DNA of 53,345 bases from an uncultured Ectothiorhodospiraceae bacterium (GTDB lineage Bacteria; Pseudomonadota; Gammaproteobacteria; Nitrococcales; Nitrococcaceae). The number at the start of each line of letters is the position of its first letter. Position 1 is the first letter of the stretch. The stretch covers positions 1 to 53,345 of the forward strand of contig CAJXSH010000011.1 in assembly GCA_913061005.1 (NCBI GenBank). The letters run 5' to 3'. Below the pieces are notes generated by a model that saw nothing but the letters and a program-made list of their open reading frames with translations, did not search any database and had not been told where the DNA came from. The position numbers and the translations under genes are program-made. Below, piece after piece: positions 22,541 to 36,611 of this stretch.

Positions 22541-22559
22541 GCCGGCTCAATCCGGCTCA
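22538..22559. terminator. Convergent hairpin between lipoprotein and response regulator
   Basis: TGAGCCGG and CCGGCTCA form a perfect 8-bp stem with a 6-nt loop. The hairpin covers the stop codons of both convergent genes. No T-tract follows, so termination may rely on Rho or on structure alone. Confidence 0.45.
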
Positions 22560-23206
22560 TCCGGCACCATGCCGTGGCGCGCTGCCCAGACAGCGGCCTC
22601 GACCCGTGAGCGAAGCTTCATCTTGCGCAGCAGGCTGCGCACATGCACCTTCGCGGTCGCCTCGGTGATGTCGAGCTCGCGGGCGATCCGCTTGTTGCTC
22701 AACCCGCGGCCAAGACAGGCCAGGATATCCTGCTCCCGCGGGGTCACCCCCTCCAGGCCCTCGGGCCCACTGCGGCCGGCCGATCGCATGGCGCGGGCAA
22801 GCGCCGAGGTCAGCAGTGGGCTGATCACCACCTCACCGGATGCGGCGCGCAGCAGATCGTCGACCAGTCGGTCCGGTTCGCTTTGCTTTAGCAAATAGCC
22901 GTTGGCGCCCGACTGAAGCGCTGCCGAGAAATCGGTCTGCTCGTCCGAGACCGTCAAAAACACCACCGGCGCCGAAAAACCCCGCTCGCGCAGGGCCTGC
23001 AGCACCTCGACGCCGTTCATGTCGGGCATGTTCAGATCAAGCACCACGAGTTCGGGGTTCAGTGATTCGATGCGCGCCAGCGCCTCGGCGCCATTGCTCG
23101 CCTCGCCCGCCATGGCCAGCCCGCGATCGCCAGCCATCTCGATGAGCTGGGCCAGACCGCGGCGCAGTAAGGGATGATCGTCGACGATGAACACTCGCAC
23201 AGTCAT
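22547..23206 (-). CDS. NarL-family response regulator
   Basis: The 219-residue regulator has a receiver with D9/D10, phospho-acceptor D57 (VVLDLNMPDM) and K107 (YLLKQS), and a C-terminal LuxR-type HTH with GVTPREQDILACLGRGLSNKRIA and ITEATAKVHVRSLLRKMKLRS, the ATAKVHV helix being NarL-like. It overlaps the NarX-like kinase by 4 nt. No nitrate or nitrite reductase genes lie in the window, so its regulon is elsewhere or different. Confidence 0.92.
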   Translation of the reverse strand: MTVRVFIVDDHPLLRRGLAQLIEMAGDRGLAMAGEASNGAEALARIESLNPELVVLDLNMPDMNGVEVLQALRERGFSAPVVFLTVSDEQTDFSAALQSGANGYLLKQSEPDRLVDDLLRAASGEVVISPLLTSALARAMRSAGRSGPEGLEGVTPREQDILACLGRGLSNKRIARELDITEATAKVHVRSLLRKMKLRSRVEAAVWAARHGMVPDEPD

Positions 23207-24585
23207 TGACAGGGCACCTCTGCCACCACACGGCTGCCCGGCTTCACATCGGCCTCGATGGTCAGCTGGCCACCCATCTGTTTGGCCCGCTCGCGCATGA
23301 TCTCGATGCCGTAATGGCCGCGCTCGACATCACCGGTGATGCCAACCCCATCGTCGGTGACGGTCAGCCGCAGCCAGTCCGGGGTGCCGGCGCCAGCCTC
23401 GACGCCTTCGAGCGTGACCGCAGCGCGATGGGCCCGGGCATGGCGACCGACGTTGTTCAACGCCTCGCGGGCGATATGGATCAGATGAATCCGCTGTCCC
23501 GGGTTGAGTTCACACACCCGACCGGTGCACTGGAAATCAAAGGTGATGTCGGGATACCAGCGCGCAAACTCGTCAACCACCGCACGCAACCCCGAGCGCA
23601 GGTCAGGCTGCTCGACCCGCAGCCGGAACATCGCCAAGACGTCGCGAAGATTCTGGTGGGCTTCATCCACCCCCCGTCTGAGCTCGGTGGCTATCTCACG
23701 CAGTGTCGCAGGGGAAGGGTCCGGGGCTTTCAATGCATCGTCCATGCGGGTGACCTGGATTTTGATGTAGGTCAGCGACTGGCCCAGGCAGTCATGGCAC
23801 TCCCGGGCCAGCGCCGAGCGCTCCTCGAGCAGTGCCAGCATGACGCGCTTTTCGGCCTCCCGGGCCTGGTTTTCCATGCGCTCGGCCTGCTCGATGCGCT
23901 CCAGCGCCGCGGCCATGTTGTTGAATCGGTGCATCACCGGGGCCATGCCGGCGCCCTGTTCGGCGTCGACACGGGTTGCCGACCAGCCGCCGGTCAATCT
24001 CTCGATACCGGCGGCAAGCTCCCGGACCGGCCGCATCAGCGACAATCGAAAGTGCTGCACGGCGACCAGCATGAGGGCCAGAAAAATGACAAAGATGCTG
24101 CCCTCGAGCAGGGTCAGCCGCGCAAGACGCGCCTCGGTGCGGGCCTCGACCGCCGTGACAAAGTCATCAAGCTGTATCGCCAGGGTCTCGATGCGATCGG
24201 TCGACGGTGTAAAAGCCGCAAAACTCGGCCCCATGGTCAAAGGCTGGCGCCAGTCGGTATGCCAACGACGTCTCAGCGCGCTGTAGCGCTGCGCCAGCGC
24301 TGGATCGGCCTGCTCGAGCATTCGATGGAGGTTTTCTTCGCGCAATGCCCGATCAAACCGCGCCGCGCTGGCCTGGACCTGCCGGAAATTGCCCTGCTCG
24401 TTGTAGAAAGCCATGCGATAGACCTCGGCACGCATGGCCGCCGCCTGTCGCAACGTACTCGCGTCATCATCCGCGGCACGGGCGTAGTAAAGCGAACTCA
24501 CCATCGCCGCGAGGGCCAGTCCAAAAAGCCCCAGGGCAATCATCGTCAACTGCAGCCGCAGCGAGCCGGCAATCGCACCGAGCAT
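23203..24585 (-). CDS. NarX-like sensor histidine kinase (HisKA_3)
   Basis: The 460-residue sensor has a membrane helix at about residues 12-33, a periplasmic helical domain of about 130 residues, a second membrane helix (160-178), a HAMP-like region and a coiled coil. A HisKA_3 domain carries the phospho-acceptor H264 in RECHDCLGQSLTYIKIQV; an HATPase_c domain has EALNNVGRHARA, TVTDDGVGI and GHYGIEIMRERA. Cys263 and Cys266 flank the His (CHDC), a layout that could tie activity to redox state; that is speculative. It pairs with the adjacent NarL-type regulator. Confidence 0.9.
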   Translation of the reverse strand: MLGAIAGSLRLQLTMIALGLFGLALAAMVSSLYYARAADDDASTLRQAAAMRAEVYRMAFYNEQGNFRQVQASAARFDRALREENLHRMLEQADPALAQRYSALRRRWHTDWRQPLTMGPSFAAFTPSTDRIETLAIQLDDFVTAVEARTEARLARLTLLEGSIFVIFLALMLVAVQHFRLSLMRPVRELAAGIERLTGGWSATRVDAEQGAGMAPVMHRFNNMAAALERIEQAERMENQAREAEKRVMLALLEERSALARECHDCLGQSLTYIKIQVTRMDDALKAPDPSPATLREIATELRRGVDEAHQNLRDVLAMFRLRVEQPDLRSGLRAVVDEFARWYPDITFDFQCTGRVCELNPGQRIHLIHIAREALNNVGRHARAHRAAVTLEGVEAGAGTPDWLRLTVTDDGVGITGDVERGHYGIEIMRERAKQMGGQLTIEADVKPGSRVVAEVPCQ

Positions 24586-25981: not shown

Positions 25982-26923
25982 CTACAAAGACGACCGCCCG
26001 ATCACCAGCGGACGCTGTCCGTCCAGCGTCCATTCATGCAGCGAGCCATCATAAAGGGCAACGCTGGCCCGGCCGTCAAGCTCTGACATGGCAAACCAGG
26101 CAAGCGATGAGACATGCCCTGAGTTGCAGTAATTGATGATCGGCCCCTCGGCATCGGGCAACATCGCATCCACCACGCCTCGAACCTCATCCGCATCCCG
26201 CCAATAGACAATCCCATCCCGGGGGGCGACAAAGAGGTTGAAGGGCAATGGCCGGGCGCCCGGCAGATGGCCCGCCCCCTGGACGTAGTCCTTGCTCATC
26301 AAACCGGTGAATTGGGCGAGTGGCCGGTTGTCCACCAGGCGGGCCTGCTGCTCATCGGCGACGACGGCGGCCACCTCTTCGCTGGTGGCAAGCAATTCGG
26401 GCTGCGGCATGCCGGCCTCAAACCGGCCGTTTTCCGGTGCATCGACCGGGGCGTCGACAGTCTCGCCCCCCGTCGCTGCCCACGCGGCAACCCCGCCGTC
26501 CAGAAGCGCCACCGCCTCGTGATCGTAGTAGCGCATCTGCCAGTAAAGGCGGGTCGCGACGGTGGCATCGCCGTAAACCGCGGTGCCCGCCGGGACGATG
26601 ACGACCGGGTCATCCGAATCGACGCCCATGGCCTGGATCAGCGACTGAAAGTCCTCTGCCGCCGGCACGAGATAGCGGATCGTACCGTCCGGCCCCGGAC
26701 GCTCGGTCAAGAAATCACCCATGGCCACAAACGGGGCGTCAGGGATGAAACCGGTCTCGCCAAAGTTCTCCACCCGTCGCGAGGTGTGAATGAGCGTGAC
26801 CTCATCGCGGTGTTCCTGCACCCATTCCGCGTCCACGACCGGCGCCATGTCAGCACCGTAGACCGGCGCTGCCAGGCCGAAAAGCAGGACAAGGGCGATG
26901 GATGGCATGGCTTTTAGCAACAT
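25982..26923 (-). CDS. Periplasmic rhodanese-family sulfurtransferase
   Basis: The 313-residue protein has an N-terminal signal peptide (about residues 1-24, ending VYGAD) and two rhodanese-like domains. The C-terminal one carries the catalytic Cys in YCNSGHVSSLAWF; the N-terminal one (VIVPAGTAVYGDATVAT) lacks an equivalent Cys, as in SseA/TST-type tandem enzymes. It would transfer sulfane sulfur in the periplasm. ATG 26923 has GAGGGG ten bases upstream and begins the signal peptide. It is last of three genes with the DsrE-like and DUF2892 proteins. Confidence 0.88.
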   Translation of the reverse strand: MLLKAMPSIALVLLFGLAAPVYGADMAPVVDAEWVQEHRDEVTLIHTSRRVENFGETGFIPDAPFVAMGDFLTERPGPDGTIRYLVPAAEDFQSLIQAMGVDSDDPVVIVPAGTAVYGDATVATRLYWQMRYYDHEAVALLDGGVAAWAATGGETVDAPVDAPENGRFEAGMPQPELLATSEEVAAVVADEQQARLVDNRPLAQFTGLMSKDYVQGAGHLPGARPLPFNLFVAPRDGIVYWRDADEVRGVVDAMLPDAEGPIINYCNSGHVSSLAWFAMSELDGRASVALYDGSLHEWTLDGQRPLVIGRSSL

Positions 26924-26940
26924 GGATTGCCCCTCAATGC

Positions 26941-27375
26941 TTAAAAGGTGAAAAGACGGACCGCCGGATCGGCCACCATGGCCCCGATCGCCGGCGGCTG
27001 GGCAACGCCGACCCCGTCGATTAGATCGGTATCGGTATATTCGCTGTTGGGCAGGAAGATCGCGCACACATCCACCTGCACGCCGTTATCAACCAGCCTG
27101 CGCACCATTTGCGCCGGACTCGCATCCGGTCCACGCAAAACCTCCGAGTCGGAGGCTTCCGAGGCGACCGCCAGCTCGCCGGCATCATCACAGAGCAGAA
27201 CCTGCGGGCTGGCGTCGGCTTTCTGTGCCTGCATGGTCAGAATCAGCGCCATCGCCTGGGTTTGCTCCTCATCGCTGGTGATGATCGTGAGCATATCGGC
27301 ATCCGTCTGGGCCAGCGCCAGGCCGGAACCGGCCATGAGCAGCAGGGCAAACGCGGCTTTTTTCAGCATCTTCAT
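26941..27375 (-). CDS. Exported DsrE-like protein
   Basis: The 144-residue protein has a signal peptide (MKMLKKAAFALLLMAGSG...LAQ) and a DsrE/YchN-like alpha/beta domain: LTIITSDEEQTQAMALILTM, QVLLCDDAGELAV, and PAQMVRRLVDNGVQVDVCAIF near the end with Cys residues at the first-strand turn and in VDVCAIF. DsrE-family proteins carry or relay sulfane sulfur, some acting as thiol carriers; the periplasmic location here is inferred. ATG 27375 follows GAGAGGAATAAGTC. It lies 17 nt before the rhodanese gene. Confidence 0.8.
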   Translation of the reverse strand: MKMLKKAAFALLLMAGSGLALAQTDADMLTIITSDEEQTQAMALILTMQAQKADASPQVLLCDDAGELAVASEASDSEVLRGPDASPAQMVRRLVDNGVQVDVCAIFLPNSEYTDTDLIDGVGVAQPPAIGAMVADPAVRLFTF

Positions 27376-27410
27376 TGACTTATTCCTCTCTCGAGTATCC
27401 GGGGCTCGCC

Positions 27411-27605
27411 TCAAGCCTTGCGGCCACAAGTATTCATGCCCAACAGGCTGTAGGCCGGGCAATAACTCACCAGCGCTGTCGCCAGCGGGATCACGCCGAC
27501 CCAGCCCCAGGTCATCCCCTGGCCGAACACCGCCAGCGCGATGAGGACCAGCCCCACGGCGGCACGAATGACGCGATCAACCGCGCCCACATTGGTTTTG
27601 AGCAT
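27411..27605 (-). CDS. DUF2892 (YgaP-type) small membrane protein
   Basis: The 64-residue protein has the DUF2892 layout: MLKTNVGAVDRVIRAAVGL, two short hydrophobic helices and the C-terminal YCPAYSLLGMNTCGRKA, with two Cys. The same domain forms the membrane part of the rhodanese YgaP. Here it is separate but cotranscribed with a rhodanese. ATG 27605 has GGAGG twelve bases upstream, an excellent site. It diverges from the Crp/Fnr-like regulator across 111 nt. Confidence 0.88.
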   Translation of the reverse strand: MLKTNVGAVDRVIRAAVGLVLIALAVFGQGMTWGWVGVIPLATALVSYCPAYSLLGMNTCGRKA

Positions 27606-27676
27606 TGGACTTTTCCTCCAGACAGCGTTGCAATCCTGCTCCAGGGCATTTGTCGTCTTGAACCCGGAGCGACTCA

Positions 27677-27689
27677 GTGATGTAGTCAC
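27677..27689. promoter_or_regulatory. Candidate Crp/Fnr-family half-site pair
   Basis: GTGA-TGTAG-TCAC is a dyad with the half-sites used by Crp-type proteins, although the spacer is 5 rather than 6 nt. It lies in the divergent gap between the sulfur genes and the regulator, 28 nt before the regulator's ATG. Confidence 0.4.
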
Positions 27690-27715
27690 CGTGGATTGGA
27701 CGCGCGGAGCGGCAA

Positions 27716-27731
27716 CATGATCCAGATCATG
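27716..27731. promoter_or_regulatory. Fnr-box-like palindrome over the regulator's start codon
   Basis: CATGATCCAGATCATG is a perfect dyad with 7-bp arms. Its core ATGAT-N4-ATCAT differs from the Fnr consensus TTGAT-N4-ATCAA by one base in each half. It covers the ATG at 27717 itself, so binding by a Crp/Fnr protein could block transcription or the dyad could act in the mRNA. Confidence 0.45.
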
Positions 27732-28403
27732 AAAGATGAAATCTCTCACCCGGCGCTCGACCAATTATCCGATAATGCCTGGGAGTCGGTCGCCCGCAGC
27801 GCCCAGAAGGTCGAGATCCCTGCCGGTACGCAGGTGTTTGGCCCCGGCGAGGTCTGCGAAGGGCTGCCGCTTGTGATCCGCGGCGAGGTCCGGGTCCAGA
27901 TGACCGGCGCGGCAGGGAACGAAATCGTGCTCTACCGCATCCAAGGGGGTGAACTTTGCCCCTTGTCGCTGGCCTGTTTGCTCGCCAAGGGGAGTCACCA
28001 GTCGGAAGCCATCGTTGATCAGGACACCGAGGCGCTGGTCATCCCCGAGCCGCTGACCAATCGGCTGCTCAACGAAGAAGCGGGCTTCCGCCGGGTGGTG
28101 CTGGAGAGTTACGGGCAACGGCTGCTGACCCTGATGCTGGTCATCGAAGAGGTCGCCTTTCGCCGGCTCGATACCCGACTGGCCGAGCGGCTGCTGGCGC
28201 GCCAGCGGGATGGCCGGCTCGCCGCCACCCATCAGGACCTGGCGGTGGAGCTGGGAACGGCCCGCGAGGTGGTCAGCCGGCTGCTCAAGGAGTTCGAGCG
28301 CCGCGGACTGGTCGGGCTCGAGCGCGGCGCGATTACGCTGACCGACCCGACCGGCATCGAGGCGATCGGCACCGCCGAAGCCGAAGGACGCAAGGCAAGC
28401 TGA
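27717..28403 (+). CDS. Crp/Fnr-family regulator with cysteines
   Basis: The 228-residue regulator has an N-terminal cyclic-nucleotide-binding-type beta-roll (about 30-125), a long dimer helix (about 130-150) and a C-terminal winged HTH with THQDLAVELGTAREVVSRLLKEFERRGLV. Cys47, Cys81 and Cys87 lie in the sensor domain (GGELCPLSLACLL), but the N-terminal Cys cluster of oxygen-sensing Fnr is absent. A thiol or persulfide sensing role is suggested by the divergent sulfur genes; oxygen or NO sensing is possible. ATG 27717 is chosen for GGAG ten bases upstream. cioAB follows after 58 nt. Confidence 0.88.
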   Translation: MIQIMKDEISHPALDQLSDNAWESVARSAQKVEIPAGTQVFGPGEVCEGLPLVIRGEVRVQMTGAAGNEIVLYRIQGGELCPLSLACLLAKGSHQSEAIVDQDTEALVIPEPLTNRLLNEEAGFRRVVLESYGQRLLTLMLVIEEVAFRRLDTRLAERLLARQRDGRLAATHQDLAVELGTAREVVSRLLKEFERRGLVGLERGAITLTDPTGIEAIGTAEAEGRKAS

Positions 28404-28461
28404 ACGGCTTGCAAGAACAAAAGGCAACAACCGGCCCGACCCGGGTCAAAGGCAGAGACCC

Positions 28462-29883
28462 ATGGAGTTTGATCCACTCCTGATATCGCGCATCCAGTTC
28501 GCTTTCGTGGTGTCGTTCCACGCCATCTTCCCGGTGTTCACCATCGGGCTGGCGTCGTACATCGCACTGCTGGAAGGCCTGCACTTCAAGACCGGCAACC
28601 CGGCCTGGGCGCAACTGTCGCGCTTCTGGACCAAGGTCTTCGCCGTTGCCTTTGGCATGGGCGTGGTCTCGGGCATCGTCATGTCGTTCCAGTTCGGGAC
28701 CAACTGGAGCAATTTCGCCCAGATGTCGGCCAACTTCCTTGGACCGATCCTCAGTTACGAGGTGGTCACCGCGTTCTTCCTGGAGGCGGCCTTTCTGGGT
28801 GTGTTGCTGTTTGGCCGTGACAAGGTGCCGCGGGGCACCCACCTGTTTGCCGCGGTGATGGTCGCGCTGGGGACGTTCATCTCTTCGTTCTGGATTCTGG
28901 TGGCCAACAGCTGGATGCACACGCCGGCCGGTGTCGAGTTCCAGGACGGGATGCTCCATGTCCGCAGCTGGGCAGAGGCCATTTTCAACCCATCCTTCCC
29001 GTATCGATTCGCGCACATGGCGCTGGCGAGCTTTTTGACCGGCAGCTTTGTGGTCGCGGGTGTCAGTGCCTGGTATCTGCTCAAGGGGCATATGGTCGAG
29101 GCCAACAAAAAGGCGCTTTCCATGTGCCTTTGGATGATCCTCTTTCTGGCGCCGGCACAGGCGGTCATGGGCGATTTCCACGGGCTCAATACGCTTGAGT
29201 ACCAGCCCGCCAAGGTGGCCGCCATGGAGGGCAACTGGGAGACCCAGGCCGGTGCACCGTTGCTGCTGTTCGCGCTGCCGGATCAGGCCGCGCAGGAAAA
29301 CCGCTTCGAGCTCGGCATCCCCAAGCTGGCCAGTCTCATCCTCACCCACAAGGCCGACGGCGTCGTGCCCGGGCTCAATGAAGTGGCGCGGGATGAGCAG
29401 CCCCCCGTGGCGGTGGTTTTCTGGTCGTTCCGCATCATGGTGGGGATCGGCCTGGCGATGATCGCCGTGGGCCTGTGGGGCCTGGTGCTGCGGCTGCGCG
29501 GCAGGCTCTACCAGCCGGGGGTGTTCCACAAGTTCCTGCCGGTGATGATTGCCGCACCGTTCATCGCGGTGCTGGCCGGATGGTTTACGACCGAATCCGG
29601 CCGCGCCCCCTGGCTTGTCTACGGCATGATCAGCTTCGCCGAGGGGCTGACACCATCACTGACCGGGTGGATGGCCATGGCCAGCCTGATCGGCTACGGC
29701 GCTGTCTATGCGGTGGTCTACGCCTCGGGCGGGTACTACCTCTGGCGGCTCATTCAGGGTGGCATGACCGATGCCGAGCCCGGCGCCGATGAGGCCGGTG
29801 CGCATCCAAAACGCCCGATGTCCGCCGGTGGGCCCATCAACCCGGCAATGCCGGCGGCGCCGGAAAAAGGAGAATGGTCATGA
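28462..29883 (+). CDS. cioA: Cyanide-insensitive quinol oxidase subunit I (bd-type)
   Basis: The 473-residue CydA-family subunit binds the hemes and quinol. Seen: RIQFAFVVSFHAIFPVFTIG with the heme-ligand His, FGMGVVSGIVMSFQFGTNW, SYEVVTAFFLEAAFLGV with the conserved Glu, and GWFTTESGRAPWLVYG. The Q-loop is short, as in CIO rather than the long form of E. coli CydA. Such oxidases resist cyanide and sulfide. It overlaps cioB by 4 nt, and the hydrophilic C-tail carries a proline-rich stretch. Confidence 0.94.
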   Translation: MEFDPLLISRIQFAFVVSFHAIFPVFTIGLASYIALLEGLHFKTGNPAWAQLSRFWTKVFAVAFGMGVVSGIVMSFQFGTNWSNFAQMSANFLGPILSYEVVTAFFLEAAFLGVLLFGRDKVPRGTHLFAAVMVALGTFISSFWILVANSWMHTPAGVEFQDGMLHVRSWAEAIFNPSFPYRFAHMALASFLTGSFVVAGVSAWYLLKGHMVEANKKALSMCLWMILFLAPAQAVMGDFHGLNTLEYQPAKVAAMEGNWETQAGAPLLLFALPDQAAQENRFELGIPKLASLILTHKADGVVPGLNEVARDEQPPVAVVFWSFRIMVGIGLAMIAVGLWGLVLRLRGRLYQPGVFHKFLPVMIAAPFIAVLAGWFTTESGRAPWLVYGMISFAEGLTPSLTGWMAMASLIGYGAVYAVVYASGGYYLWRLIQGGMTDAEPGADEAGAHPKRPMSAGGPINPAMPAAPEKGEWS

Positions 29884-30878
29884 TCGACTTTACGATGATC
29901 TGGGCGGCGATCATCGCCTTCGGCGTGATCATGTACGTGCTCATGGATGGCTTTGACCTGGGGGTGGGGATCCTCTACCCCTTCGCCCCCGGCGAAGAAT
30001 CCCGGGATGTGATGATGAACTCGGTGGCCCCGGTCTGGGATGGCAACGAGACCTGGCTGGTGCTCGGCGGTGCCGGCCTGCTGGGTGCGTTTCCGCTGGT
30101 CTACTCGGTCCTGCTGCCGGCGCTCTACCTGGGCGTCTTTTTGCTGTTGGCCGGGCTGATCTTCCGGGGGGTCGCCTTTGAATTTCGATTCAAGGCCACC
30201 CCTGCGACCAAGGGCTACTGGAGCGCCGCCTTTGCCGGTGGCTCGACCCTGGCAGCACTCGCCCAGGGGATCGTGGTTGGCGCCTACATCCAGGGCTTTG
30301 AAACCGAGAACTTTACCTACGTCGGCGGTGCCTTTGACTGGCTCACACCCTTTTCAGTGGTGACCGGCATCGGTCTGGTACTTGGATATGCGTTGCTCGG
30401 CAGCACCTGGCTGATCATGAAAACCGAGGGCGATATCCAGGAATGGGCCTATCGGGTCACGCCGAAGCTGCTCACCGGGGTGCTGGCGGTCTTTTTGGTG
30501 ATCAGTTTCTGGACGCCGCTGGTGGACAGCTTTGTCCGCGACCGCTGGTTCAGCAACCTGTTTGTCATCTGGCTGCTGCCCGCCGGGGCGCTGCTATGCG
30601 CGGCGATGATCTACCGCGCCGTGGGCCGGCGCAGCGAAGGCCTGCCCTTTGTGGCTACCATGGGACTTTTCATCTTTACCTATCTGGGTCTGCTGGCGAG
30701 CAAATGGCCCTATGTGGTGCCGCCGGCGTACACGCTCTACGACGCCGCATCGGCGCGGGAGTCGCAGATGTTCCTGCTCCTGGGCGTGCTTTTTGTCATC
30801 CCGGTGGTGCTGGGTTATACGGCCTGGACCTACTGGGTCTTCCGCGGCAAGGTCCGGGTGGGTGAGGGTTATCACTAG
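29880..30878 (+). CDS. cioB: Cyanide-insensitive quinol oxidase subunit II
   Basis: The 332-residue CydB-family membrane subunit has about eight helices. The N-terminal MYVLMDGFDLGVGILYPF, the VWDGNETWLVLGG segment and the WPYVVPPAYTLYDAAS loop are characteristic. ATG 29880 is preferred because AAAAAGGAGA lies just upstream at proper spacing; an ATG at 29874 is possible. It forms the oxidase with CioA; the pair reduces O2 without pumping protons. Confidence 0.94.
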   Translation: MIDFTMIWAAIIAFGVIMYVLMDGFDLGVGILYPFAPGEESRDVMMNSVAPVWDGNETWLVLGGAGLLGAFPLVYSVLLPALYLGVFLLLAGLIFRGVAFEFRFKATPATKGYWSAAFAGGSTLAALAQGIVVGAYIQGFETENFTYVGGAFDWLTPFSVVTGIGLVLGYALLGSTWLIMKTEGDIQEWAYRVTPKLLTGVLAVFLVISFWTPLVDSFVRDRWFSNLFVIWLLPAGALLCAAMIYRAVGRRSEGLPFVATMGLFIFTYLGLLASKWPYVVPPAYTLYDAASARESQMFLLLGVLFVIPVVLGYTAWTYWVFRGKVRVGEGYH

Positions 30879-30905: not shown

Positions 30906-32588
30906 ATGACCGGCAAGGCATGGCTGCAGGCGCAGCGCTCGGCGGTTGCCCTGAAGCTGCGTCTTGCAGCCGCCTACGGGGTCGTCGAAGGACTGCTGAT
31001 CATCGCCCAGGCCGGGCTGATCGCCTGGCTTGTCCATCAGGTCATCCGCGCCGACCAGTCCCCCCATGCGCTGATTGCACCGGCATTGGCCCTGGTGGCT
31101 GTGGTGGTCCTGCGTCCCATGGCTCAGACCTTACGGGCGGCGGCGGCCATCCAGGCCTCGGATCGGGTACGCGCCCGCGTCCGGCAGCGTCTGCTCCGGC
31201 GCATCGAGGCAATGGGCCCGGCCGGCCTGGCGGGCACGGATAGCGGCGAGCTGGCAGCCAAGTTGAGCGATCAGGTGGATGCGCTGGATGGCTATTTCGC
31301 GCGTTACCTCCCTCAGATGCAGGTGGCCATCCTCGTTCCGCTGGCCATCCTTTTGACCGCCTATGCGCTGGACTGGCTGGCGGCGACCTTCCTTTTGCTC
31401 TCGGCGCCCCTCATCCCGCTTTTCATGGCGCTGGTGGGCATGGGCGCCGAGCGACTCAATCGCGACCAGTTCCTGGCGCTGCAGCGGCTGTCGGGTCGAT
31501 TCCTCGACCGGGTGCGGGGGCTGACCACGCTGCGCCTGCTCGGGCGAACCGAAGACGCCGCCGAAGGCATCATCCGCGGCGCCGATGAATACCGGATCCG
31601 CAGCATGCGGGTGCTGCGGGTCGCCTTTCTCTCATCCGCCGTGCTCGAGTTCTTTGCCTCCGTCGCCATCGCGGTGGTCGCCATTTATGTCGGTTTCGGG
31701 CTGCTTGGCTATATCGACTTTGGCCCGGCCCCGAAGCTGACGCTTTTCAATGGGCTTTTCGTGCTGTTGCTGGCGCCGGAGTTCTTCCAGCCGTTGCGCA
31801 CCCTTGCCCAGCATTATCACGACCGTGCCACCGCCCTGGGCGCCGCCGAGCAACTCGCCGAGCTCGACATTGAACCCCCCGCTCAGACCGGGGCCGGTCC
31901 ATCGAACCCGCCGGTGGCCGGACAGCCGTCCGGCCTGCCGCCCGGCCACGTACTGGCTGTCGACTCGCTGACCGTAGCCAGACCCGGCCGGGGCCAGGTC
32001 ATCCATGTGCCGGCGTTGAACGCCACAAGCGGCGAGCGCATTCTCATCGAAGGGCCCTCCGGCAGCGGCAAAACCTCGTTGCTCGAGGCGATCGCCGGGC
32101 TGTTGCCCGCCCAGGGTGGGCAGGTCCATCGACATGCCGACAGCACCCGGGCGCTCGGCTGGCTGGCAGCGCCACCCCATGTCGCCCGTGCCAGTCTGGC
32201 CGACAACATCCGTCTGGGTGATCCCGATGCCGACGACGCTGCGGTGCTCGCCGCTGCCGAGCGCGCCGGGGTGATGGAGTTCGCGGCGCGACTCACGGCC
32301 GGTCTCGACACCCGGGTCGGAGAACGTGGCCAGACCCTCTCCGGTGGTCAGGCCCAACGCCTGGCCCTTGCCCGGGCCTTTGCCTCGCCGGCGTCGCTGA
32401 TCCTGCTCGATGAGCCGACAGCCGCACTGGATGCGGTGACCGAGCGATATGTCCTCGACGGCATCGACGCCCTGGCCGCCGAGGGCCGGGCGCTGATTAT
32501 CGCCAGCCACGATCAGGTCCTGCGCAGGCATGCCGATCAAATCTACTGCATCCGTGACGGCGTTCTGGAGCACTGCGGCGATGCATGA
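30906..32588 (+). CDS. cydD: CydD-type ABC transporter subunit
   Basis: The 560-residue half-transporter has six membrane helices (about 15-310) fused to an ATPase: Walker A GPSGSGKTS, signature TLSGGQAQRLALARA, Walker B LILLDEPTAALD. CydDC exports glutathione/cysteine and is required for bd-type oxidase assembly. A proline/glycine-rich linker of about 30 residues joins the two domains. It starts 27 nt after cioB and overlaps cydC by 8 nt. Confidence 0.92.
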   Translation: MTGKAWLQAQRSAVALKLRLAAAYGVVEGLLIIAQAGLIAWLVHQVIRADQSPHALIAPALALVAVVVLRPMAQTLRAAAAIQASDRVRARVRQRLLRRIEAMGPAGLAGTDSGELAAKLSDQVDALDGYFARYLPQMQVAILVPLAILLTAYALDWLAATFLLLSAPLIPLFMALVGMGAERLNRDQFLALQRLSGRFLDRVRGLTTLRLLGRTEDAAEGIIRGADEYRIRSMRVLRVAFLSSAVLEFFASVAIAVVAIYVGFGLLGYIDFGPAPKLTLFNGLFVLLLAPEFFQPLRTLAQHYHDRATALGAAEQLAELDIEPPAQTGAGPSNPPVAGQPSGLPPGHVLAVDSLTVARPGRGQVIHVPALNATSGERILIEGPSGSGKTSLLEAIAGLLPAQGGQVHRHADSTRALGWLAAPPHVARASLADNIRLGDPDADDAAVLAAAERAGVMEFAARLTAGLDTRVGERGQTLSGGQAQRLALARAFASPASLILLDEPTAALDAVTERYVLDGIDALAAEGRALIIASHDQVLRRHADQIYCIRDGVLEHCGDA

Positions 32589-34299
32589 ACTCATCCCCTA
32601 CCTGCGGATGCTGCGCCGCTACCGCGGCCAGCTGGCCCTGGGCGCGGTCCTGATGCTTGCCACCGCGGCGTCGGGCATTGGTCTGCTGGCGCTCTCGGGC
32701 TGGTTCATTACCGCAACGGCTGTCACCGGCGCGTTACTGGCGGCCGGGGTCGCCGCCAGCCTCGAAATCTACATCCCTGGCGGGGGCATTCGGGCGTTTG
32801 CCGTGACCCGGACAGCCGCCCGATATTTTGAGCGCATTACCAATCACGACAGCGTCCTGCGGCTATTGCGGGATCTGCGCGGACGGGTATTCCGCCGGCT
32901 CGCGGCCACCAGCGCCGAGGACCGGGCGGATTTTGCCAGCGGCGAGCTGCTCAATCGGCTGACCACCGATGTGGATCGGCTCGATGGGCTGTTCCTGCGG
33001 GGACTGGCGCCGCCTCTGGTGGCGTTCCTGGCCATTCTGATCGTCGCCGCCCTGTTGAGCATCGGCAGCCCTTTGGTGGCCTTGCCGGCGGGCGGGGCAT
33101 TGCTGGTGATCGCCGGCATGGCGCTGCTCACCGCCTGGCAACAAGGACAGCAGTCGACCACCCGCCTTGCCGGCGCCCAGGCCGACCTGCGCGCCGGGCT
33201 GATCGACCATATCCACGGGCTTGGCACCTTGCTTGCGTTTGGCAGCCTGAGCGCACATCAGCGACGACTGGATGATCTGGAGACGACAAGCCGTCAGGCC
33301 GAGGCCGGGCTTGCCATGGCCATGGCCCGGCGCGAGGCGTTTTTGCATGGTGCCGTGCAACTGGTGGCGGTCGGTGTGCTGCTGGCCGCCCTGTGGCTTT
33401 TCCATCGCGGTGCGGTCACCGGAGCCGTCGCGGTGATGATGCCACTCGCCGTTCTGGCGCTTCTCGAACCCGTCGGGGTCCTCCCGGGCGCGGGGCTCAA
33501 CCTCGCCCACGCCCGGGCATCGGCGGTGCGGCTGGATGATGGGCTGGCCCGGGTTGGCCCCGACGGCCCGGCCCGGGCATCCGGCGATGTACCCGACAAC
33601 GCCGGCGACACGGGTGGGGCGGCATCGGGGCCGGTCGATGTCCAGATCGACGGGCTCACGATCACCCGGGGCGCCGGCGCTCGGGTGGTCGATGGCCTTA
33701 GCCTTGCCATCGCCGCCGGCGAGCATCTCGCCATGATCGGCCCCTCGGGCTGTGGCAAATCCACGCTGGCTCTGGCCCTTTCCGGACAGATCCAGCCCGA
33801 TCAAGGCAAGATCACGCTCGATGGCACACCCATGGCGGAGATGTCGGCGGCTCAGCGCATCCACCAGGTGGCCTTTCTCACCCAGCAGACCGAACTGTTC
33901 AGCGGTTCGTTGCAGGATAATCTGCAAATCGCCAACCCCTCCGCCACCGATGCCGATTTCTGGCGCGTGCTCGAGGCCGTGGCACTGGATGGCTTTGCCC
34001 GATCGCTGCCCGAGGGCCTTGATACCTGGGTGGGTGAGTCCGGCACCAGCCTGTCCGGTGGACAGGCCCGCCGTGTGGCACTGGCACGGCTGATGCTCCG
34101 CGACCCGTCGCTGGTGATCCTCGACGAGCCCTTCTCGGGTCTGGATGCCGGGACGGCCCGGCACATCGATCAGGCGCTGACCGACTGGCTGGCCAACCGC
34201 ACGGCCCTGCTGCTGGGCCATGCCGAAACGGCATTGCCGCAGGCCGACCGACTCGTCGAGATGCGGGCCGGACAGGCGCAGCAGACCACGCCGGGATAG
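32581..34299 (+). CDS. cydC: CydC-type ABC transporter subunit
   Basis: The 572-residue partner of CydD has a membrane domain (about 15-300) with LLALSGWFITATAVTG and RAFAVTRTAARYFERITNHD, typical of CydC, and an ATPase with Walker A GPSGCGKSTL, signature LSGGQARRVALAR and Walker B VILDEPFSGLD. A hydrophilic insert of about 30 residues (G/D/A-rich) precedes the ATPase. ATG 32581 overlaps the cydD stop. A sigma-54-like motif inside the gene (33222) is judged fortuitous. Confidence 0.92.
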   Translation: MHELIPYLRMLRRYRGQLALGAVLMLATAASGIGLLALSGWFITATAVTGALLAAGVAASLEIYIPGGGIRAFAVTRTAARYFERITNHDSVLRLLRDLRGRVFRRLAATSAEDRADFASGELLNRLTTDVDRLDGLFLRGLAPPLVAFLAILIVAALLSIGSPLVALPAGGALLVIAGMALLTAWQQGQQSTTRLAGAQADLRAGLIDHIHGLGTLLAFGSLSAHQRRLDDLETTSRQAEAGLAMAMARREAFLHGAVQLVAVGVLLAALWLFHRGAVTGAVAVMMPLAVLALLEPVGVLPGAGLNLAHARASAVRLDDGLARVGPDGPARASGDVPDNAGDTGGAASGPVDVQIDGLTITRGAGARVVDGLSLAIAAGEHLAMIGPSGCGKSTLALALSGQIQPDQGKITLDGTPMAEMSAAQRIHQVAFLTQQTELFSGSLQDNLQIANPSATDADFWRVLEAVALDGFARSLPEGLDTWVGESGTSLSGGQARRVALARLMLRDPSLVILDEPFSGLDAGTARHIDQALTDWLANRTALLLGHAETALPQADRLVEMRAGQAQQTTPG

Positions 34300-34361: not shown

Positions 34362-35423
34362 ATGGCCCATCATATTGCCCTTATCCCTGGCGACGGCATT
34401 GGCAAGGAAGTCACCCCCGCCGGCGTGCGCTGCCTGGAGGCACTGGCCCGGCGCCCGGGACTGGATTTCGAATTCTCCGAGTTTCCCTACTCCTGCGAGT
34501 ACTACGCCCGCCATGGCCAGATGATGCCGGATGATGGCATCGAGACGTTGCGGCCCCACGATGCCATTCTGCTGGGGGCAGTGGGCTATCCCGGAGTGCC
34601 CGATCATGTCTCGCTATGGGGCCTGCTTTTGCCCATCCGTCGGGCATTTCAACAGTACGTCAACCTGCGCCCGGTGCGCCTTTTGCGTGGCCTGACATCG
34701 GCGCTGCGTGACCGCGGCCCCGAAGACATCAACTACCTGGTGGTGCGCGAGAACAACGAGGGCGAGTACTCCGACATCGGTGGCCGCCTCTACGACGGAC
34801 TGCCCGAGGCAATGGCCATCCAGGCCAATGTCATCACCCGCAAGGGCAGCGAGCGGATACTCGACTACGCCTTCCGGACCGCGCAGGCGCGTCCCCGCAA
34901 GCAGCTGGCCTATGCCACCAAATCCAACGGCATCAAACACAGCATGCCCTTCTGGGACGAGCAGGTTGCCGCCATGGCCGAACGCTTCGACGATGTGAGT
35001 GTCGAGCAGTACCACGTCGACATCCTGGCGGCCAACTTTGTCACCCACCCGGACTGGTTCGACGTGGTGGTGGGCACCAACCTGTTCGGCGACATCCTCT
35101 CGGATCTCGGGCCGGCCACGGCGGGCGGCATCGGTGTTGCCCCGTCGGCCAACATCAACCCGGATCCGGCCGTGCCCTCAATGTTCGAGCCAGTCCACGG
35201 CTCGGCCCCGGATATCGCCGGACAAGGTGTTGCCAACCCCATCGCCATGATCTGGTCGGTCGTCATGATGCTCGAAGACCTGGGCGAGCAGTCCGCCGCC
35301 GATGACCTGATGGGCGCCATGGAAAATGTCACCCATGAAGGGCGGGTCCTGACCCGCGACCTGGGCGGGACGGCATCGACCAACGAATTCACCGACCGGC
35401 TCCTCGCCGAGCTCAAGGGCTGA
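34362..35423 (+). CDS. Tartrate/D-malate dehydrogenase family (TtuC/DmlA-like)
   Basis: The 353-residue NAD-dependent decarboxylating dehydrogenase of the isocitrate/isopropylmalate superfamily has IALIPGDGIGKEVTPAG, the TtuC/DmlA-type GAVGYPGVPDHVSLWGLL (in place of the isopropylmalate loop), YVNLRPVR, VVRENNEGEYSDIG and the metal Asp residues in NLFGDILSDLGPA. Members oxidise D-malate, L-tartrate or meso-tartrate. It stands 22 nt before the tartrate-dehydratase-like gene, favouring tartrate metabolism. Confidence 0.9.
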   Translation: MAHHIALIPGDGIGKEVTPAGVRCLEALARRPGLDFEFSEFPYSCEYYARHGQMMPDDGIETLRPHDAILLGAVGYPGVPDHVSLWGLLLPIRRAFQQYVNLRPVRLLRGLTSALRDRGPEDINYLVVRENNEGEYSDIGGRLYDGLPEAMAIQANVITRKGSERILDYAFRTAQARPRKQLAYATKSNGIKHSMPFWDEQVAAMAERFDDVSVEQYHVDILAANFVTHPDWFDVVVGTNLFGDILSDLGPATAGGIGVAPSANINPDPAVPSMFEPVHGSAPDIAGQGVANPIAMIWSVVMMLEDLGEQSAADDLMGAMENVTHEGRVLTRDLGGTASTNEFTDRLLAELKG

Positions 35424-35444
35424 GTCAGAACAGGGCAGCGCCGC

Positions 35445-36611
35445 ATGAAAATCACCGACATCCGCGAGGCCAGGGCTTCCATCGCCTCGCCCATCGCCAA
35501 CGCCTACATCGACTTCAGCAAGATGGACGTCTCGGTAGTGGCGATCCACACCGATGTGATCCGCGACGGCCAGCCCGTCGTGGGCTATGGCTTCAACTCC
35601 AATGGCCGGTATGCCCAACAGGGCCTGCTGAGGGATCGCTTTATTCCGCGGCTGCGGGATGCAACGGCTGAGATGATCGTCGATGAAACCGGCGAGAACC
35701 TGGATCCATTCCGGATCTGGGAGATCCTCATGCAAAACGAAAAGCCCGGCGGCCATGGCGAGCGATCGGTGGCGGTGGGCGTACTCGATATGGCGGTCTG
35801 GGACATTGTCGCCAAAATCGAGGCCCGCCCCCTGGCGCAGGTCCTGGCAGAGCGCTTTGGTGATGGCAGCACCGATGCGCGCGTCGCCGTCTATGCGGCC
35901 GGCGGATACTACTACCCCGATGACGACCTCGAGCGACTGCGAGAAGAAATGCGTGGGTATCTGGCGCTTGGTTATACCGCCACCAAGATGAAAATCGGTG
36001 GCGTACCGCTGGCGGATGACCTGCGGCGCATCGACGCCGCGCTCGAGGTGATCGAAAAGCCCGAGTGCCTTGCTGTGGACGCCAACGGGCGTTTTGACGA
36101 GGCCACGACACTCGCCTATGCCCGGGGGATGGCGCACTACGGGCTGCGTTGGTTTGAAGAAGCGGGCGACCCGCTCGACTACGAAATACAAAAAGCACTC
36201 GGCAAGGCGTACAGCGGGGCCACGGCGACCGGCGAGAATCTGTTTTCGCATCAGGACGTCCGAAACCTCATGCGCTATGCCGGCATGCGAGCCGACCGGG
36301 ACATCCTGCAGATGGACCCGGTGCTCTCGTATGGGCTGGTCGAATACCTGCGCATGCTCGATGAGCTGCGGGCCGCCGGCTTCTCGACGCGCAACTGCAT
36401 CCCCCACGGGGGCCATCAATTTGCACTCAACATCGCCGCGGGGCTCAAGCTCGGCGGCAATGAAAGCTACCCCCGGGTGTTTGCACCGTTTGGTGGCTTT
36501 GCCGATAGCACACCCATCGAGGATGGCCATGTTCGCATTCCCGATATGCCGGGTATCGGCTTCGAGGACAAGGCGGCGCTCATGGATACGCTGCGGGCCC
36601 ATCTCGACTGA
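35445..36611 (+). CDS. Enolase-superfamily dehydratase, D-tartrate dehydratase-like
   Basis: The 388-residue member of the mandelate racemase/muconate lactonizing group has an alpha/beta N-terminal cap and a TIM barrel with the KxK base motif TKMKIGG (about residues 182-184), the metal ligands in AVDANGRFD, WFEEAGDP and TGENLFS, and a HGGHQFALN acid/base segment (about 322). These match the D-tartrate dehydratase subfamily described in Bradyrhizobium, which yields oxaloacetate. Substrate assignment is by motif and context only. Confidence 0.83.
   Translation: MKITDIREARASIASPIANAYIDFSKMDVSVVAIHTDVIRDGQPVVGYGFNSNGRYAQQGLLRDRFIPRLRDATAEMIVDETGENLDPFRIWEILMQNEKPGGHGERSVAVGVLDMAVWDIVAKIEARPLAQVLAERFGDGSTDARVAVYAAGGYYYPDDDLERLREEMRGYLALGYTATKMKIGGVPLADDLRRIDAALEVIEKPECLAVDANGRFDEATTLAYARGMAHYGLRWFEEAGDPLDYEIQKALGKAYSGATATGENLFSHQDVRNLMRYAGMRADRDILQMDPVLSYGLVEYLRMLDELRAAGFSTRNCIPHGGHQFALNIAAGLKLGGNESYPRVFAPFGGFADSTPIEDGHVRIPDMPGIGFEDKAALMDTLRAHLD

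Follow-up and report, generated by a model that had tools for sequence, protein, structure and literature searches.

None of the sulfide and persulfide regulators named in the available part of a 2022 review (CstR, SqrR/BigR, PigS and FisR; PMC9774590) is a Crp/Fnr protein. SqrR, BigR and YgaV, of the ArsR family, are two-cysteine sensors of sulfide genes. According to the same part of that review, the dithiol of CstR, a CsoR-family protein, carries di- to tetrasulfide bridges, and FisR of Cupriavidus, a sigma-54 activator of sulfide oxidation genes, is a cysteine-based activator for reactive sulfur species (PMC9774590). For YgaV of Escherichia coli, the accessible portion of PMC9774250 describes control of the rhodanese gene ygaP and places cydA among the few targets shared with FNR or ArcAB. 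Here we describe a regulator of the Crp/Fnr superfamily encoded in the window, by which we mean the whole stretch of 53,345 nucleotides analysed from contig CAJXSH010000011.1 of an uncultured Ectothiorhodospiraceae bacterium (GCA_913061005.1). Its gene, here called crp, heads a rightward unit, crp-cydA-cydB-cydD-cydC, and diverges from leftward genes for a DUF2892 protein, a DsrE-like protein and a rhodanese. We consider it likely that the regulator represents a widespread Crp/Fnr clade of sulfide or sulfane-sulfur sensors, probably activators, that joins sulfide oxidation to bd-oxidase respiration. We also lean slightly towards a more specific proposal, an unnamed class of sulfane-sulfur sensor in which a C-x5-C pair would replace the cAMP pocket, and which would use a 13-bp N5 operator unlike that of CRP or FNR to activate from -41 a regulon coupling periplasmic sulfide oxidation to bd respiration. 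Among open-licence papers in PMC we found no description of a Crp/Fnr sulfide sensor associated with DUF2892.

This reading is carried first by a candidate operator, the box GTGAYNNRGTCAC, which was first found in the gap between DUF2892 and crp. To assess its spacing we took 75 crp-DUF2892 loci, searched up to 260 bp 5' of DUF2892 and derived the expectation from the remaining sequence of these loci. GTGA-N5-TCAC occurs at 50 of the 75 loci (0.2 expected), the spacings N3, N4 and N6 to N10 are each found at 0 or 1 locus, and the box is present in 29 of 47 representatives that share less than 60% identity. On these counts the clade has its own predicted operator, GTGA(C)-N3-(G)TCAC. The GTGA half-sites of E. 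coli CRP are spaced N6, so that those of the clade lie one base closer together; the recognition helix retains R-E-x-x-x-R, the motif that reads GTGA in E. coli CRP. The regulator resembles CRP and FNR in its fold, in this helix for GTGA half-sites and in a predicted class II position, and differs from them in its N5 spacing and in lacking both the cAMP pocket residues and the FNR cysteine cluster. The relaxed pattern GTGAYNNRGTCAC has many additional matches in the window's genus and some in controls as well, and the few that were inspected (L212-L214, L227) all lie inside reading frames; we therefore relied on position and on extended forms of the box. Second boxes occur on the far side of crp at three loci (L012 7574, L014 4081, L068 1503), and those in L014 and L068 precede a gene resembling persulfide dioxygenase.

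Within the genus, the same box joins two unlinked loci. Each of the 14 genomes carries one regulator and one SQR with a Tat signal (the SQR of G001 appears as two adjacent matches), and GTGAC-N3-GTCAC lies upstream of sqr in all 14. Upstream of crp the box is found in the 13 genomes where this region can be read (10 exact, three with one change from GTGAYNNRGTCAC), the fourteenth region being cut by a contig end, and it is kept in G004 and G005, where no DUF2892 gene adjoins crp. The extended form CAGTGAYNNRGTCAC has 17 matches across the 14 genomes, 16 of them at crp or sqr and the remaining one inside another frame (G013, L064). The genome to which the window belongs has the box in front of a series made up of sqr and the genes for a small protein, a SLAC1-like exporter, HiPIP and DsbG, so that the probable regulon includes an sqr locus unlinked to the window's genes. 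The best NCBIfam match of this SQR is the type III model (2.4e-56, below cut-off), and cysteines are seen by eye in PIKCAGAP and SCPL, which we take to be the SQR redox motif.

We then considered 369 genomes sampled from the class, 108 of which carry a regulator match at E<=1e-40 (134 matches altogether). The strict box is present in 38 of these 108 genomes and in 33 of the 261 others (Fisher p=2e-6, a test that ignores relatedness among the genomes). Away from crp there are 27 strict sites in regulator-bearing genomes, including the sqr site of the window's genome; we examined 20 of the others, together with 20 of the 36 sites in regulator-less genomes, using profiles that covered families of sulfur, bd-oxidase, regulator and similar genes and with which other targets could go unseen. 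Sulfur genes follow the box at three of the 20 sites in regulator-bearing genomes (pmpAB; dsrE-rhodanese-SLAC1; dsrE-rhodanese) and at none of the 20 in regulator-less genomes. Genes for SLAC1 exporters follow a box in two genomes, and in other genomes the gene behind it is sqr or DUF2892. In Pelagibius and Loktanella the regulator heads a run of DUF2892, persulfide-dioxygenase-like, SQR-like and SulP genes, joined in Loktanella by PmpAB; among NCBIfam models, operon representatives match best those for Blh sulfur transferase/dioxygenase and for type III SQR, in each case without reaching the curated cut-off. The shared operator and the surroundings of these genes support predicted control of SQR, dioxygenase and rhodanese genes by the regulator, and the sulfur regulon as a predicted unit is well supported. 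The operator common to the sulfurtransferase genes and sqr supports the idea of the sequence-only reading that these genes form a sulfur unit with a link to respiration. By eye, two 1-Cys-peroxiredoxin-like genes were also seen, one behind a strict box (L270 2001, G391) and one beside a dioxygenase gene (L259 870-1535, G303).

The layout of these promoters points to the sign of control. On the side of the box that faces DUF2892, 21 of 49 cases have a TAnnnT hexamer at a distance of exactly 22 bp; the mean over other offsets is 0.38, and the crp side of the same boxes shows no comparable peak. A -10 hexamer at +22 places the box centre at -41, the geometry of a class II activator, and a centre at -41 with a fixed gap of 22 bp to the -10 is the standard activator geometry of the superfamily. 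A conserved TGA just after the box would serve as a weak -35. In 23 further promoters (14 sqr promoters of the genus and nine others) the exact hexamer occurs at +22 once, and 12 have A and T at hexamer positions 2 and 6, a comparison made post hoc. The regulator is thus probably an activator. It could instead be a repressor that comes off the box once persulfide has reacted with it, in the manner of SqrR, BigR and CstR: the conserved TGA resembles a -35 touching the box, the box lies very near the start codon on the crp side, and the ArsR and CsoR sulfide sensors covered in the available part of PMC9774590 repress. Against repression stands the activator geometry just described, and we regard it as improbable. 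As a predicted class II activator of the Crp/Fnr superfamily, the regulator would differ from SqrR and BigR, which repress and which, like YgaV, belong to another protein family with another operator; from CstR, an all-helical tetrameric repressor of the CsoR fold; and from FisR, an activator of the Fis/sigma-54 type.

The second line of evidence concerns the regulator itself. Matches to PF00027, PF13545 and PF00325 exceed their cut-offs, giving a cNMP-binding domain followed by HTH_Crp_2, and a fold search also returns Crp/Fnr proteins. The sequence-only reading had stressed cysteines at positions 47, 81 and 87, and these are indeed the only three in the protein; their generality holds for two of them. 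In a first set of 30 loci obtained by scanning genome contigs, with 27 homologues aligned, C81 is present in 27/27 and C87 in 26/27, whereas C47 is found in 20/27 and missing in the other seven. The wider set of 110 regulators combines 28 of the first set with regions retrieved for 80 of the 134 matches (three regulators come from one locus, L162); these were picked by hand, mostly following the score, so that weak matches are under-represented. The C81/C87 pair is intact in 96 of the 110, counting the truncated L035 regulator as without it, and DUF2892 lies within 700 bp of 71 of these 96 compared with four of the 14 others. Unbiased clustering of neighbours returned DUF2892 as the one evident partner (67 of 96 loci), the rest being swamped by antisense shadow frames. 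DUF2892 is divergent from the regulator in Ectothiorhodospiraceae-like genomes and directly downstream of it in Alphaproteobacteria and Thioalkalivibrio.

Placed on its AlphaFold model (pLDDT 87.7), C81 lies just before, and C87 inside, a helix that matches the nucleotide cassette of CRP, a correspondence made by position; on this alignment the C-x5-C pair sits where CRP binds cAMP. Cyclic AMP-dependent CRP has Arg-Ser in its phosphate-binding cassette, and the CRP of Mycobacterium tuberculosis aligns with PRTSSA where the regulator profile shows neither R nor S. We infer that C81 and C87 react with persulfide as the signal. Three described sensor types were considered and set aside. The sequence speaks against a cAMP-dependent CRP, as the cassette reads GGELCPLSLACLLAKGSHQSEA and the cAMP pocket residues are replaced; an FNR-type protein is contradicted by the lack of an N-terminal cysteine cluster for [4Fe-4S], no cysteine preceding position 47; and the SqrR/BigR type would call for an ArsR winged-helix domain, which the Pfam matches of the regulator do not include.

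The best PDB sequence match, 3dv8 (2e-41), is a Crp/Fnr protein of Eubacterium rectale that keeps both cysteines. It also served as the model for PgRsp of Porphyromonas, which differs from our proposal in having been studied as a heme-binding, redox-sensing protein, the word sulfide being absent from the accessible text of that paper (PMC6955866). This relative bears on two other explanations. The regulator might be a heme- or gas-binding (CO, NO) protein of the CooA, DNR or PgRsp type, in keeping with the heme binding reported for PgRsp (PMC6955866, in part) and with the NO resistance of bd oxidase (a title cited in PMC9774590). We find this very unlikely, since the targets identified are sulfur genes, although no search was made for NO or CO genes at the boxes, and since replacing Cys76, Met78 or His85 of PgRsp left its heme spectrum unchanged in the section seen of PMC6955866. 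Alternatively, a general redox or oxygen sensor, working through a dithiol-disulfide switch or an Fe-S cluster on C47, C81 and C87, would have sulfide genes as only some of its targets. Three cysteines in many members, the redox sensing reported for PgRsp (PMC6955866, in part) and the remote box before a peroxiredoxin-like gene in L270 would fit such a sensor. So would the oxidase genes of the window, cytochrome bd being a classic low-oxygen target. C47, however, is missing precisely in the seven members that head sulfide-oxidation operons, 16 of the 17 extended boxes in the genus lie at crp or sqr, and the FNR cluster is absent, which together make a general redox or oxygen sensor unlikely.

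The link of the proposed sulfane-sulfur sensor to respiration varies with lineage. CydA and CydB families with CydDC are all present, identifying a cytochrome bd or cyanide-insensitive oxidase, and one COX1-type oxidase was detected in the window's assembly. The CydA motif, usually GRQPW, reads GRAPW (residues 380-384, window 29599-29613). By analogy with the E. coli enzyme, reported as sulfide-resistant (titles cited in PMC9774590; PMC7315123, in part), the window's bd oxidase is thought to tolerate sulfide, and the part of PMC7315123 available describes induction of cydAB by sulfide in Acinetobacter baumannii. The window has its box a short way 5' of crp-cydABDC, and crp and cyd are therefore probably under its control. 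Two lineages outside the genus show the orders box-sqr-cydA-cydB-cydD-cydC (G026) and crp-box-DUF2892-cydABDC (G303), which supports the respiratory part of the sequence-only reading, and G017 shares the layout of the window. Its generality fared less well: the regulator is mostly tied to DUF2892, with cydA or cydB within 4 kb of only 5/110 regulators, four of them near the window's genus. We conclude that the bd oxidase is a lineage-dependent member of the predicted conserved Crp/Fnr regulon. The scarcity of crp-cyd pairs might suggest that the two operons are adjacent by chance, without common control. Chance adjacency does not explain a cydA gene directly beside crp in 14/14 genomes of the genus and DUF2892 near the regulator in 25 of the 30 first-scan loci from Alpha- and Gammaproteobacteria (the exceptions being L032, L034 and the fragments L035, L037 and L038), nor a box conserved at linked and unlinked loci (sqr, dsrE), and we give it almost no credence. 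The neighbourhood is thus not peculiar to one genome. A second cydAB copy adjoins the box-sqr-cydABDC operon of G026 (L257 9388-11807).

A sensor of this kind would act as follows. SQR would oxidise sulfide to persulfide or polysulfide, which would convert the C81/C87 thiols into a persulfide, disulfide or polysulfide bridge; the modified dimer would bind the box and contact RNA polymerase as a class II activator. Its output would be a periplasmic sulfur relay (DUF2892, DsrE-like protein and rhodanese) and the Tat-exported SQR, which would feed quinol to the bd oxidase, and this oxidase would work on while sulfide poisons the sole heme-copper oxidase detected. Several observations weigh against this account. 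Both the sensing and the DNA binding are read from sequence. Some members without C87 still have DUF2892 and the box (L036, L172), DUF2892 is the sole recognised partner in most of the wider set, where cyd genes are seldom near, and the relative PgRsp is reported to bind heme. An exact box is lacking at 25 of the 75 DUF2892 loci, 14 of which are off by a single half-site change, and the exact hexamer at +22 is absent from the window and from the 14 sqr promoters of the genus. The association of strict box and regulator comes from a test blind to relatedness; of the 20 remote strict boxes examined where the regulator is present, 17 adjoin no profiled family, and many of these 17 lie within reading frames, where they are probably due to chance. 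If the proposal is true, the range of folds among sulfide and persulfide regulators would grow by that of a Crp/Fnr protein with an operator of its own, and a function would be suggested for the common orphan pair of Crp/Fnr and DUF2892. The 13-bp tag would allow the sulfide regulon to be mapped across many genomes, and the matching of sulfide oxidation to a sulfide-tolerant oxidase becomes directly testable.

The gene content and divergent order given by the sequence-only reading agree with our annotation, every gene lying where it had been placed (Table 1).

Table 1. Features of the crp-cydABDC locus and the divergent sulfur genes, in window coordinates
Feature	Position	Strand	Evidence or remark
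Rhodanese/TST-type exported sulfurtransferase, ~313 aa	25982..26923	-	PF00581 9.5e-14; signal peptide by eye
DsrE-like small exported protein, 144 aa	26941..27375	-	sub-threshold PF02635; signal peptide by eye
DUF2892 / YgaP-like transmembrane protein, 64 aa	27411..27605	-	PF11127 6.6e-23
Predicted operator box GTGATGTAGTCAC (GTGA-N5-TCAC)	27677..27689	.	DUF2892-regulator intergenic gap
Palindrome CATGATCCAGATCATG (TGA-N6-TCA, FNR-box-like)	27716..27731	.	overlaps crp start codon
Crp/Fnr-family regulator, 228 aa, C47/C81/C87, recognition helix AREVVSR	27717..28403	+	PF13545, PF00027, PF00325
cydA/cioA, cytochrome bd subunit I, 473 aa	28462..29883	+	PF01654 1.7e-156
cydB/cioB, cytochrome bd subunit II	29874..30878	+	PF02322 1.3e-94; TIGR00203 over cut-off
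cydD, ABC exporter subunit needed for bd assembly	30906..32588	+	TIGR02857 over cut-off
cydC	32530..34299	+	TIGR02868 over cut-off; ATG at 32581 is the probable start

In the rhodanese the PF00581 match covers the second half, the first half remaining sub-threshold (20.4 vs 22.2 bits); a match to the mercaptopyruvate sulfurtransferase model NF008557 falls below cut-off, and the loop NYCNSG of the second domain carries a cysteine. The DsrE-like protein scores 15.9 bits against PF02635 (E=0.015; cut-off 22.7), and two cysteines are invariant in an alignment of 14 homologues. Its structure model has a pLDDT of 45 and leaves a DsrE fold unconfirmed, and no meaningful PDB match was found (best E=0.23), so that the name is tentative. 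For DUF2892 itself, the accessible part of PMC5358917 describes the Azospira suillum gene Dsui_0042 as up about 10-fold during sulfide oxidation, its deletion causing a minor impairment of onset.

The window's assembly (1.65 Mb, 84.7% complete) contains one clear member of the regulator family by profile search, which at E<=1e-5 gave just one more match, a weak one (2.3e-6) in a 657-aa frame; the same search (A1) gave no second clear Crp/Fnr protein for the FNR-box-like CATGATCCAGATCATG. Six of the genus's 14 genomes, among which one is unreadable in this region, have a TGA-N6-TCA palindrome near the crp start; it reads TTGATCTGGATCAA in G005. Upstream of hemH the window encodes, judged by eye, a LuxR-type response regulator and a sensor kinase (22547-24585). 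On the other side of the locus, tartrate dehydrogenase and enolase-superfamily genes lie 3' of cydC (34362-36611), and the tartrate dehydrogenase is kept at the same place in L009, L011, L035 and L260.

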